Shown here piece by piece: positions 13,784-39,734 of a stretch of DNA of 64,000 nucleotides. The position numbers and the translations under genes were made by a program. How positions within the stretch are numbered: the stretch's first letter is position 1; each line of letters opens with the position of its first letter. The notes below the pieces were generated by a model. The model was not told the DNA's origin. It did not search any database and worked only from the letters and a program-made list of their open reading frames with translations. The stretch comes from Candidatus Peregrinibacteria bacterium (lineage in GTDB: Bacteria > Patescibacteriota > Gracilibacteria > UBA1369 > 2-02-FULL-48-14), in the NCBI GenBank assembly GCA_018658105.1, contig JABHVW010000015.1, positions 1 through 64,000 of the forward strand, given 5' to 3'.

Positions 13784-16700
13784 CTAGTAAATTAGAGTAC
13801 CTCCGCTCAACTTAGTATCCTCTTGGAATCCAAGCCATTGAACGTTTGCGTTGGTATCGTACCACCAGATATCTCCAGCAGTAACTGAACCAGCACTTGA
13901 TGAACCGTAGTCAATAGAAACTGTAACATTGTCATCTGCAGAAGTGTCCTCATCGAGGATTGTTGAAGAATTCAAGTTAACAGTAAATGTCTTTGACTCA
14001 CCATTTCCGATCTCAATTTCTGAGTCCGTACCACTAACTGGGTAGAAGTGGATAATACCTGTAGATGTGTCAGTCACAGCAGCAGTATTAGCACCTGGAG
14101 TGAAGTAACCAGTAGCAACTGTTGCACCACCTTCTTTAAGGTAAGCAACTGTTGGTACTTCGTCTTCATGATCACTATCTCCATCAGTACTAGCATCTAG
14201 ATCAGCATCAGATTCGAAGTCGATTCCGATACGGTTATTGTAAAGCATAACACGATCTATAAATACGTCATCACCGGCAGCGTCAGGACCTGCGTCATCT
14301 GCACCAGCAAATTGGATATTGAAGAATTCATCAGTAGTCGTACAATCTGATGGCATTGCTATATCGTATGCAAAGTGCCAATTACTTTCAAGTAAAGCAT
14401 CTGTAGCGTGAACTAGATTAGTAGTAGCCAGAGCCTGTACGTGCTCTACAGCACCAGTGTTATCTGTGTTACAACCAATTTCAATTTCACTTGCAAGAAG
14501 AGATACAGTGTCTGGAGCTGCGCTATCTTCAAATCTTAGCCAGAATGAAGCGTAAGCGTAGTCTTCAAGTAGAGGTGCTGAGTAAGCAACAAAGTCATCT
14601 GCTGCTGCCAAAGCTGTAACCTCACAACCTGATCCATCTACTTGCTCTCCTGCTGCAGTTACAGTAGCACTTGTTAGAGTTAGAGTAGAGTTACCTGCTA
14701 GACATGTAGTAAGTTCTTTAGCTACACGGAACTTAACTGATTCTTCTTCGTCTGCTTCGACATCAAATTTGAAGATATCGTCAGAAGATGAAACTGTTTG
14801 AGCTCCACTTGGTGAACCTGCGTTCACAGAGATTGTAGGCTTAGATTCGTAAATTACATGTTGGTTTGAACCAGTAAGTGAGTGCATACCTGGGATTGCG
14901 TAAAGCACTTCATCTAGAGCTTCGTAAGTACCTCCTAGTGAGTTGTTGATCAATATTGCAGTTACAGTGTCTTCGGTTGAACCGTCGACCCATGCAGTTA
15001 CAACGTAGATATCATCAGTAGATGAATCACAAGAAGTATCTCCACCAGCACCAGTCATACATAGGAAAGCGCCTACTGGAAGGTCAGCTTGATCCGCAGT
15101 ATTATTATCGATCGTAAAGCTTGAAGATGCACCCAAAGTGGCTGTACCTACAAGATCAGTTGCATCGTTAGTGTATGTAACTGTATTTACGAAGTCTGCG
15201 TCATCTAGATCAGTAAGAACTAGAAGTTCGTCAGACCACTCACCATCTGCATCAGAGTCGTCCATTTTTTCTGCTTCATAAGCAGTTTGACTACCTTGAG
15301 CGATAGCTCTAAAGTTGTTCATTGCAAGATTAAGATCTACGAATGTACCTGCATCAGCTCCTAGAGGAACTGTTTGAGTATCAGCGTACACTGTGATTGT
15401 AGTGTCGTCATCTTTAGGAACAAAGATAGAAAGTGATTCGAATGTAGCGTTACTCTTACCACTTAGTACACTAGATGCTAATTGAGTAGCACCATCTTCG
15501 TCAGTGTATTCGATGTAAACAGCAGTTGTGTTGTCATCGTATCCACCAGGAACAAGAGTTGTGTCATGAGTGTCATTACTATCGTAACGATTAAGTAGAG
15601 CAAGTTTTTCGATAATGAAATCCTCGTCAGTTGCATCGAAATCAAATTTAGAGATTTCAACCATTTCTGTACCTGCTACGATGATGTTCTCATCAGTAGA
15701 ATCAGGAACACTAGCAGTAAGAGTACCACCATTGCTAATTGTAATTAGAACAGTTGGAGCTGTTGCACTTACATTAAGAGCAGAAGAGATACCTAGAACA
15801 GATGCTGCAGCGAGAGTGTTACCTTCTTCGTCTGTAGCAGAAACGTCAGTTGCAGCGTTAATACCGAATGCAATAGAGTCATTGTTTGAACCTGTGTAAC
15901 CATTTGTTGATACATTACCAACTACACAAAGTGTTTCAGTAACACCTGCTTCGTAAGTTTTGTTGATATCTGTAAATGCTACAGTACCAGCATCAGCAAG
16001 TCCTTTAGAACCTACTAATTCAGCACCTTCACTGTCTTCAAGCCATACTGCGCCTACAACAACATTAGCGTTGTAAGTAGCATCAGAGCCATCAATAGCG
16101 AATGATCCATCGTCACCATCTTCAGAGTATGAAGTAGTTAGAGTTAGATCATCAAGTTCAATATCTGAAGCAGTTCCAGCTTTAACACTGAAACATGCAA
16201 ATCTTTGATTGTCAGTACCCTTAACAACTGTATCGCTGTTAACTACAACTGGACCTCCGAAAGTAAGACTTGGAGATTTAACAGTCATTTGGTTAGCAGA
16301 AAGGTCAGTAGCAGGAACTAGAACACTTGAGTTAGTAAGTGCCTTGTTGTTACCGTCACGTAGTGTTGGGTAAGTACTTCCAATTTCTAGGTTTGCGTCT
16401 AGAGTCATATCGTCTAGATCTGCATCGTTCTTAGGGTCAACACTTAGTGCAAGACTAAGTTCTTCACCGTCAGTAAGAGAGAATTCGTCAGTAAATCTGT
16501 AGTAAGCAAGATCATCATCTGTATCGCCTCCATCACCATCTGTAGTAGTCATTTCAGTAATTGCAGTTGTACCGATAGTAGTAGCACCACCACCAGTAGT
16601 AACGAATGCGTCAACGTCAACTGGTCCCATTAGAGTTTCCCCTAGTGAACCGTCTTCGTTAACAACAGAGATCTTAACGTCAGTGAAGTTTGCACTGTCA

Positions 16701-18900: not shown

Positions 18901-19307
18901 GACTAGTTTATTTAAGGTTGTCTACTCTTGCAAGATTTAATGCATTAAAGATTTGTGAGCTTGACAATCAGACGGCGACTATACACTTTGATCCGACTAG
19001 TCAACAAGCTGTTTTTCTGTATAGGCGATCTGGTGTTGTGCCCTTTGTGCCGCCGCATCTTGATGATTGACAGCATTTCGTAATGACATTTGAGTCGGTA
19101 TTATACAAGTTTCTTTGGTACGTCAATATACCTTGAATAGGCGTTTGACTAGTCAAAAAAGTAGACATTTAACAGGTTTGGAAGTATACGAGACGACATA
19201 ACCGCCTATACACGCAAAGGTGCTGTTTTGTTGATTAATCAACACATGGAGTTTTGACTAGTCGGATGCTGTTTTAGGGCTTATAGCCACCTCTTTTTGC
19301 CTATACA
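18901..19307. repeat. Repeat cluster I: TTGACTAGTCAA and CGCCTATACA motifs
   Basis: Two short motif families alternate in the gene-free stretch before dnaJ. Palindromic B motif (TTGACTAGTCAA or close): 18901 (half), 18993-19004, 19145-19156, 19231-19242 (TTGATTAATCAA), 19254-19265. A motif (CGCCTATACA/CGACTATACA): 18976-18985, 19018-19027 (inverted), 19203-19212, 19298-19307. A degenerate AATAGGCG adjoins the 19145 site. The same motifs recur at 20597-20606 and in the cluster around the HTH gene at 21667. They look like protein-binding sites; see findings. Confidence 0.8.
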
Positions 19308-26107: not shown

Positions 26108-26143
26108 TGAGATTGGGCACGTGCCCAATTATAAGCTGAAAAA

Positions 26144-36847: not shown

Positions 36848-37306
36848 TTATATATCTTCATTTAATGAAAAGACTATCGATGGAGAGAAGCCGCGTGATG
36901 CCAAAAATCGAGTGCGTTTTTGATAAAGCTTTTTTGGAGACATAGGCTTTTGAACTCGATTGAACTTTTCAAGAGCTTTAAGTGCGACTTCTTTTTCGTT
37001 GATGTTAAGCGAATCCCAGACTGAGTTTGTGACTTTTGTTGGAATTCCTTTTCTATATAATCTTTGTGCAATTTTGCGTGGCCCTTGAGGGTTCAAATTG
37101 ATTGAGTTTTCTATAGTACGACGAATATAATCTTCGTCATTTAACAGGTTTAATTCGCCAAGCCGATTAATAATTTTGTCTTCATTTTCCTTATTGTGCT
37201 CTTTGCGCTTTTTAAGTTTTTCACGCAGCTCGTGGACGCTATGCGAGCGACGTGAAATTGCTCGTATAGCGTAGTCCATAAGCTTTTGATAATCTTGCCC
37301 CTCCAT
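36848..37306 (-). CDS. recX: Regulatory protein RecX
   Basis: 152 residues of the RecX family of three-helix repeats; RecX caps and disassembles RecA filaments. Recognisable blocks are YAIRAISRRSHSVHELREKLKKR and DEDYIRRTIENSINLNPQGPRKIAQRLYRKGI. Its start overlaps the recA stop (TAATG), the usual recA-recX coupling. Confidence 0.88.
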   Translation of the reverse strand: MEGQDYQKLMDYAIRAISRRSHSVHELREKLKKRKEHNKENEDKIINRLGELNLLNDEDYIRRTIENSINLNPQGPRKIAQRLYRKGIPTKVTNSVWDSLNINEKEVALKALEKFNRVQKPMSPKKLYQKRTRFLASRGFSPSIVFSLNEDI

Positions 37307-38346
37307 TATGTTGCAAGTTTATCGCGTACTAGTTTTTCTAGTTCATTAGTAATTTTTTTGTTTTCTCTTAAGAAAGCTTTACTCTTTTCGCGACCTTGGC
37401 CAAGTTTGTTTTCACCGTAGCTGTAGAAAGCTCCTGCTTTGCGTACAAACTCATACTTGGTAGCGAGATCGAGAATGTCCCCTTCTTTTGAAATACCTTG
37501 ATTGTAAAGAATGTCGAATTCAGCCGTTTTGAAAGGTGGTGCAATTTTATTTTTTACAACTTTCACACGAGTTCTGTTCCCAACTAATTCTTTTTCACCA
37601 GATTCATCTGTACCTTCTAATTTACCAATTCGTCGAATTTCCATACGAACTGAAGAATAGAATTTGAGAGCTTGCCCACCTGTAGTAGTTTCTGGATTAC
37701 CGAACATCACACCAATCTTCATTCTAATTTGATTTAAGAAGATGATAGTACAGTTTGACTTACTCACCGCTCCAGTTAACTTACGAAGCGCCTGACTCAT
37801 TAAACGAGCATGCAGACCCATTTGGGCATCACCCATGTCGCCTTCAATTTCTGCTCGTGGCGTAAGTGCAGCAACTGAATCTATAACGATGATGTCTACT
37901 GCATTTGAACGCACTAAAGTTTCTGTAATTTCTAAAGCTTGCTCACCATTATCTGGTTGAGACAGGAGAAGTTTATCGGTATCTACTCCGATCTTTTCTG
38001 CATAGGATGGATCGAGCGCATGCTCTGCATCAATGAAAGCTGCCGTGCCACCTAGCTTTTGAATTTCTGCAATAATGTGCAGAGTTAGTGTTGTTTTCCC
38101 AGAACTTTCTGGACCGTAAATTTCAACTACGCGGCCTTTAGGTATACCGCCACCGAGTGCTAGGTCGAGAGAGATTGAACCACTTGGAGTAGTTTCGATA
38201 TCCATATGTTTGGACTCCCCCAGCTTCATAATTGAACCTGTCCCATAATTTTTTTCAATTTGAGACATTGCAAGTTCGAGGGCTTTTAATTTGCCTTCTT
38301 TTTGAGTGTTGTTTGAAGCTTCTTCGCTTCCTTTTTTCTTTGCCAT
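37306..38346 (-). CDS. recA: Recombinase RecA
   Basis: 346 residues from [11 protein letters not shown] (ATG at 38346); the track's 25-residue extension spans the promoter. RecA forms filaments on single-stranded DNA for strand exchange and induces LexA cleavage. The core is fully conserved: [14 protein letters not shown] (Walker A), [50 protein letters not shown] (Walker B), [36 protein letters not shown] and a C-terminal acidic-poor tail. It is cotranscribed with recX. The promoter carries a perfect 18-bp palindrome. Confidence 0.98.
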
Positions 38347-38380
38347 AATTTGTGGAGTTAAGTAATAGGCGTTTGATAGG

Positions 38381-38409
38381 ATGTTAGGTGAGTGCGCACT
38401 CACCGTCAA
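38381..38409 (-). promoter_or_regulatory. recA promoter with 18-bp palindromic operator
   Basis: Minus strand: -35 TTGACG (38404-38409), 17-bp spacer, -10 TAACAT (38381-38386). The palindrome GGTGAGTGCGCACTCACC (38387-38404) fills the spacer exactly and its last base belongs to the -35. This is where a LexA-type repressor would bind, but the sequence matches neither the CTGT-N8-ACAG nor the GAAC-N4-GTTC box. Confidence 0.7.
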
Positions 38410-38480
38410 GTATTTTTGCAAAAAACGTGCTTTACATATAAAGGTTTTTTACGTGAAAGTCCTGAATTAAAGCTGAAACG

Positions 38481-39734
38481 TTACATGTTTTGCAAAGTTT
38501 GCGCGTGGAAGTTTGCGAAAATATTGCTGGTGACCAGAGTGGTGTAATCAAAATTTGCTTCGTTGCTTTTTACTGCCCAAACGATACCGTGTTTGATTGC
38601 TGTGACTTTTTCTGAGCCAATATGATGGTGAATTTTTTGTGTTTTTGCTTCGCCGTGGCTATCTTCAATATCGCGCACGAGGAAGATTTGTATGCCCTCG
38701 GGATGATCAAAAGTTTCATCGTCTTTAACTGCAAGTACATTTTCTTTGTTGGTGTTGAGCAATTCGCCGGAGGCAATTAGCTCTTCTGCGAGTTTGTCTT
38801 GGTTGATTCCTGGAGCATGCTGTATTTCGTAATGAACCCATTTTGCGACTTCGAGATTGTGGCCTTTTAAGTTGAGTGCGTTTTGCACAGTTTGCGCTTC
38901 GTTGTCTGTAATAATTAGCTGGATGTATAGTTCAATCGTGTTCGCTTGATGAGTGTATTGGGTCGTTTTCGGGCGATTTTCTGTGAATTCGAGCGGCTCT
39001 GTTGTGCCAGTGAGCGCTTCCCCCTCCATATACTTTCGCATTGAAGTGAAGATTTTTGGCATAGGCGCACTTGGCGCGCGTTCAGGATGAGGCATAATCG
39101 CCATAACATTTCCTTGAGGGTTGCAGATTGCGGCTGCGTCGTCGATGGCACCGTTTGGATTGATCGGATCGTAGCGGAAAACTATCTGATTATTTTCTTG
39201 AAGTTTTTCAAGGAGGCCGGGTGTGATTGTTGTGAAGCGGCCTTCCCCATGAGCAGCAGGTGCCCAAGTTTCTTCGTTCAAATCGTAGTCAATTGTGAAT
39301 GCTGTGCGACCTTTTGGGGCTGCACTTTTCATGGTCACGTTTTCGTTGTAGAAACCTGTTCCGATTAGTTTGCCATCTTGCATTCGGCGGTTGTGTGCGA
39401 GGGACATGAGCAGTTCGTGGTTCGCTCCGCCTGGCACGAGACCTGTTTCAATTAGATTTTGAGCTCCGTTACAAATGCCAAGAACTGGTTTGCCTTTTGC
39501 TGCTTGAACTTTAATTTCGTCCATAACTGGATCGAGCGAGGCGATTAGGCCTGCGCGTACGCGATCTTCGTAGGCGAATCCACCTGCAATTACGAAGCCG
39601 TCGAAGTCGTCGAGTTTTTTTGGATCGTCATTCCAGCGGAAAAATTCGCCGTGCATTCCTGCATCTTTTAGCGCACGAACTGTTTCGTACTCTGAGTTTA
39701 CACCTGGGAATTGTATTACTGCGACTTTTTTCAT
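38481..39734 (-). CDS. purQ: FGAM synthetase glutaminase subunit PurQ fused to a PurS-like C-terminal region
   Basis: 417 residues, against ~225-260 for PurQ alone. Residues ~1-245 are the class I glutaminase: VAVIQFPGVNSE, GGFAYEDRVRAG, the nucleophile Cys in GICNGAQ and MPHPER supplying the His-Glu. Residues ~260-345 resemble PurS (TIELYIQLIITDNEAQTVQNALNLKGH...ELLNTNKEN), and ~350-417 is a second small domain (KVTAIKHGIVWAVKS). PurQ, PurS and PurL together form FGAM synthetase, step four of purine synthesis; PurS bridges PurQ and PurL. The gene starts one base after the purL stop. The PurS assignment is by pattern only. Confidence 0.88.
   Translation of the reverse strand: MKKVAVIQFPGVNSEYETVRALKDAGMHGEFFRWNDDPKKLDDFDGFVIAGGFAYEDRVRAGLIASLDPVMDEIKVQAAKGKPVLGICNGAQNLIETGLVPGGANHELLMSLAHNRRMQDGKLIGTGFYNENVTMKSAAPKGRTAFTIDYDLNEETWAPAAHGEGRFTTITPGLLEKLQENNQIVFRYDPINPNGAIDDAAAICNPQGNVMAIMPHPERAPSAPMPKIFTSMRKYMEGEALTGTTEPLEFTENRPKTTQYTHQANTIELYIQLIITDNEAQTVQNALNLKGHNLEVAKWVHYEIQHAPGINQDKLAEELIASGELLNTNKENVLAVKDDETFDHPEGIQIFLVRDIEDSHGEAKTQKIHHHIGSEKVTAIKHGIVWAVKSNEANFDYTTLVTSNIFANFHAQTLQNM

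Follow-up and report, generated by a model that had tools for sequence, protein, structure and literature searches.

A lineage-specific variant of the LexA operator is predicted at the recA promoter of Candidatus Peregrinibacteria

Two LexA operators serve as references for the site described here: the Escherichia coli box, CTGT-N8-ACAG, and the Gram-positive box of Bacillus and Actinobacteria, with its GAAC-N4-GTTC core. Residues E44 and E45 of E. coli LexA have a contact role in the recognition helix, and drift of LexA specificity is a known phenomenon. A study by Sanchez-Osuna, Barbe and Erill from 2017 reportedly addressed the LexA regulons of Patescibacteria, the same question in the same superphylum. 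In PMC7739468, this study and two others are cited for direct-repeat LexA motifs, whereas the operator of the order studied here is an inverted repeat. The motif of the Balneolaeota, TTACACATATTTTWTACATA, is likewise a direct repeat, with a regulon including lexA, recA and polymerases (PMC7739468). It resembles the present case in being lineage-specific, in having been found by the same comparative logic and in its lexA/recA/polymerase regulon, but its sequence is unrelated. Our search of the literature for the box motif found no description beyond the papers that cite the 2017 Patescibacteria study; that study may already describe this box or a related one. The operator of the order differs from those of E. 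coli and Gram-positive bacteria and from the other motifs quoted in PMC8565304 and PMC7739468.

The window analysed here is a stretch of 64,000 nucleotides from a Candidatus Peregrinibacteria bacterium, in which a perfect 18-bp palindrome, GGTGAGTGCGCACTCACC, is embedded in the promoter of recA (Table 1). On the minus strand, the spacer GTGAGTGCGCACTCACC (38403-38387) separates the TTGACG and TAACAT hexamers, and the recA start codon follows 34 nt after the latter. A consensus promoter scan of positions 38250-38520 returned this promoter alone, with a 17-bp spacer and 9/12 matches, in agreement with the hexamers and spacing proposed by the sequence-only reading. The palindrome and its coordinates also stand as proposed, but it does not fill the spacer exactly, as had been claimed, since it overlaps the -35 element by 1 bp and includes the sixth base of that hexamer. 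The recX-like gene behind recA is probably co-transcribed with it and would thus fall under the same operator.

Table 1. Features of the recA promoter region in the window, with positions counted from its first letter
Feature	Position	Strand	Remarks
Putative LexA box GGTGAGTGCGCACTCACC	38387..38404		perfect 18-bp palindrome; at recA in 30/30 relatives
-35 element TTGACG	38404..38409	-	palindrome starts with its last G; promoter scan
-10 element TAACAT	38381..38386	-	17-bp spacer; most often TATACT in relatives
recA, 346 aa, putatively regulated gene	37306..38346	-	TIGR02012 equivalog, 543 bits
recX-like gene	36848..37306	-	start codon overlaps recA stop; all best NCBIfam matches are RecX models (E 1e-22, under the curated thresholds)

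Judged by its symmetry alone, the recA palindrome is only mildly unusual, and the case therefore stands on its recurrence at SOS genes and its conservation across the order. On both grounds, we conclude that it is very probably a LexA operator (SOS box), in a variant common to this whole order of Gracilibacteria (Ca. Peregrinibacteria). A pattern search of the 1.12-Mb genome recovered two exact copies of GTGAGT-N4-ACTCAC, at recA and at a Y-family polymerase gene (Pfam IMS, 1e-37), and two copies with one mismatch, at lexA and upstream of rsmH. When the whole composite promoter pattern, TTGACNGTGAGNNNNNNCTCACNTA, was searched with up to two mismatches, only three sites were found, at recA, lexA and the Y-family polymerase. 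In all three the box is placed between the -35 and -10 elements; the polymerase promoter reads TTGACGGTGAGTGTATACTCACCTATTAT, and that of lexA, TTGACGGTGAGGCTTTACTCACCTATATTGAGTGTACTCTCACC, carries a pair of boxes, 21 bp apart, that stop immediately short of the start codon. The box is thus present at lexA itself, the gene where a LexA site is most expected under autoregulation. The search of further SOS genes suggested by the sequence-only reading was borne out for lexA and the polymerase, but recX has no site of its own and lies directly behind recA.

The same arrangement is conserved across the order; lexA was identified in 85 and recA in 83 of its 89 genomes. With up to two mismatches allowed, the composite site occurs in 87 of the 89 genomes, with 264 matches as compared with 10 for a reversed control pattern; with at most one mismatch, it occurs in 56/60 sampled genomes of the order versus 2/228 from the rest of the class. 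In one of these two outside genomes, the box stands at both lexA and recA, and LexA has the same SDNSVLKHLKAL recognition helix. Detailed reading of individual loci showed the box in each of 30 recA promoters and in each of the 29 lexA promoters whose upstream DNA was readable; in three lexA genes it lies 255-332 bp upstream of the matched start. A second copy is usual at lexA, 21-28 bp downstream of the first. The consensus of the order is TTGAC-GGTGAG-N6-CTCACC-TATANT, the box itself being GGTGAG-N6-CTCACC. In 7/30 relatives, with TTGACA-GGTGAG-N6-CTCACC-TATACT, the 18-bp box does fill the spacer exactly. In a scan of named genomes, at least 114 stretches matched, and among the matches listed nearly all were labelled Candidatus Peregrinibacteria, Peribacteria, Gracilibacteria or Patescibacteria, the few others (Gordonia, Prevotellaceae, Oscillospiraceae, Chloroflexi etc.) being close to the number expected by chance (estimated at about 7). 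None of the viral contigs searched for the box carries it.

The repressor that would recognize this site is encoded in the genome, as the sequence-only reading had anticipated. The protein P0002 is a full LexA in profile searches (TIGR00498, 182 bits; PF01726; PF00717; S24 peptidase, 2e-28), with both the winged-helix and the self-cleaving S24 domain, and can be aligned to solved LexA structures from end to end. Its Ala-Gly cleavage site (IPAGGP), serine (GLSM) and lysine (TVKRY) are placed as in E. coli LexA in the alignment, and its predicted autoproteolysis apparatus is intact. The E. coli recognition helix, SPNAAEEHLKAL, aligns to SDNSILKHLKAL, in which leucine and lysine occupy the positions of E44 and E45. 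In the form SDNS(I/V)LKHLKAL, this helix is nearly invariant across the order and different in sister lineages that use other boxes. The genome also encodes P0003, a second, diverged LexA-like S24 repressor with 31% identity to LexA, located beyond the window (L023:2172-2774; contig 10 of the genome, G000:C10, ~95.2-95.8 kb). Its likely cleavage site has Cys-Gly in place of Ala-Gly, and its gene, which adjoins a phage-type integrase, probably comes from a mobile element.

LexA binding, repression and induction by damage can be inferred from these features. In an undamaged cell, a LexA dimer on the GGTGAG-N6-CTCACC dyad would cover the spacer and part of the -35 element and keep RNA polymerase off the recA promoter. 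Upon damage, RecA filaments formed on single-stranded DNA would stimulate the self-cutting of LexA; the cleaved repressor would leave, and recA-recX, lexA and the Y-family polymerase would be expressed. The lexA gene would repress itself via its two boxes. This kind of predicted switch is already known, a classical LexA operator placed over a promoter, and it is the operator sequence that appears to be lineage-specific.

The box resembles the Gram-positive one in its palindromic dyad, its 12-bp core geometry, its GA...TC positions, its location upstream of lexA and recA and its predicted binder of the LexA family. It differs in that the inner AC...GT bases become GT...AC or are loose, and in the added outer GGT...ACC; the GAAC-N4-GTTC core is absent from the recA box, whose core is GAGT-N4-ACTC (GAG-N6-CTC in the consensus of the order). 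We found no match to CTGT-N8-ACAG in the recA box, while the E. coli system is similar in having an operator over the recA and lexA promoters, two lexA boxes and a LexA that is homologous over its full length. The earlier statement that the palindrome matches neither the E. coli nor the Bacillus box is therefore right for the cores, but the geometry in common with the Gram-positive box means that it is not wholly unrelated. The broader proposal of a lineage-specific SOS box is strongly supported: the box recurs at SOS genes, it is conserved throughout the order, and a LexA is encoded.

Alternatively, the DNA-repair regulon could be governed not by LexA but by some other S24 or winged-helix repressor, such as P0003, with the box as its binding site. 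With two LexA-like proteins in the genome, P0003 could in principle bind the box, but its gene lies beside the integrase and no box was found in its own promoter. Moreover, a second protein of the P0003 type is missing from most of the relatives with the box, which encode the true LexA only, and the presence of the box at lexA is what autoregulation by LexA predicts; we thus regard control by another repressor as very unlikely. It is also conceivable that the palindrome is a structural element of RNA or DNA, such as a leader or attenuator hairpin, with no protein bound to it. Perfect inverted repeats can form hairpins, and the similar palindrome upstream of rsmH lies within a conserved non-coding stretch. 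At recA, however, the position between -35 and -10 places the palindrome outside any transcript from that promoter. In addition, the central six bases of the box vary among relatives and are not symmetric beyond their column composition, a pattern to be expected where a dimer binds around a free spacer, which makes a structural role extremely improbable; it also follows that the perfect centre of GGTGAGTGCGCACTCACC is not a requirement.

Finally, the palindrome could have arisen in the promoter by chance, as the 0.24 perfect 18-bp palindromes expected in the window, against two observed, leave some room for coincidence. This explanation is refuted by the preservation of the site in front of recA and lexA in the different families of the order and by the excess over the control matches, and the probability that we would assign to it is negligible. 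The second perfect palindrome, ATTGGGCACGTGCCCAAT, occupies positions 26112-26129. Repeated TTTGACTAGTCAAA / GTTGACTAGTCAAC palindromes were also noticed between 19144 and 21582 (at 19144, 21508 and 21569), which are possibly operators of another regulator. The sequence GTGAACCTGCGTTCAC at 14812, which resembles a sister-lineage box, lies inside a 1560-aa coding frame and was dismissed as a chance occurrence.

Related boxes exist in the sister lineages of the class. In family f24, GTGAAC-N4-GTTCAC, which contains the Gram-positive core, was present in 9/11 genomes tested versus 0/28 other sister genomes. The loci read have it in front of recA (5), lexA (2), radA (2) and a methyltransferase gene. 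Family f19 has sites resembling GGTG-N-ACG-N2-CGT-N-CACC, read by eye, at lexA (3/3) and several recA genes, family f28 has GGTGA-N8-TCACC, and a further sister-lineage variant is GGTGNACG-N2-CGTNCACC. The outer GTG...CAC is common to the boxes of the order and its sisters, whereas the inner bases differ, and the recognition helices differ along with them (SDNSILKHLKAL, SKNAVAKVVNAL, SKNAAFKLVNKL). As the sister boxes keep the outer bases and vary the inner ones, with the helix varying too, the recA box can be considered a lineage-specific variant of the known LexA box. It is tempting to suggest, if with slightly more doubt than confidence, that the LexA boxes of Gracilibacteria would form a step-by-step evolutionary series matched by changes of the recognition helix, in which the box of the Peregrinibacteria would be one of the derived states. 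Such a series would amount to an unpublished natural experiment in how a repressor can move to a different operator and yet keep its regulon. The graded box variants and helix changes of this class could serve as a testbed for the drift of LexA specificity with a small set of proteins and operators.

With the predicted operator, a DNA-damage regulon can be assigned to an order of bacteria that is uncultured and has reduced genomes, and members of the regulon can be searched for with the pattern TTGAC-GGTGAG-N6-CTCACC-TA. The reading frame behind the box was lexA at 49 loci, recA at 37, radA at 9 and dinD at 5, with rmuC, a PIF1-like helicase and a Y-family polymerase at 2 each; these numbers refer to the loci fetched, some of which share a genome, and should not be read as frequencies. 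The predicted regulon includes, beside recA, the Y-family polymerase in the genome of the window and radA, dinD and rmuC in relatives. BRO-N, RhuM, KilA-N and AntA-like genes, a cytosine methyltransferase and small helix-hairpin-helix proteins were also found behind the box (RhuM, AntA, the methyltransferase and helix-hairpin-helix were named by reading the sequences, the other names coming from profile matches of representatives). The BRO-N, RhuM and KilA-N genes are phage-antirepressor-like and no classical SOS genes, yet dinD is itself of the BRO-N type. In many Peregrinibacteria (L143, L153, L157, L181, L185, L196, L220, L226 and others), the box precedes genes of the BRO-N, RhuM, KilA-N or AntA-like types, which are partly related to E. 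coli dinD.

The fourth palindrome of this kind in the genome (G000:C5:67770), upstream of rsmH, lies outside the promoter layout. Similar palindromes occur in 4/5 family relatives, in an alignment judged by eye only and whose first row is a wrong-strand sequence; their inner bases are loose and they lack the TTGAC-box-TA layout. They belong to about 250 nt of non-coding DNA conserved upstream of rsmH in the family (G000:C5:67595-67790; L287 2520-2712; relatives L288-L291), which begins with a GGTGA-N8-TCACC-like palindrome and contains TTTAGCAAGTA and TTAACAGGTTT. This stretch gave no Rfam match of note and may represent either a regulatory RNA or an additional LexA site. In two other loci (L075, 1501, minus strand; L077, 1501, plus strand), helix-hairpin-helix-like proteins of 58-96 aa are encoded directly behind the box, and this small gene is a possible unnamed SOS gene.
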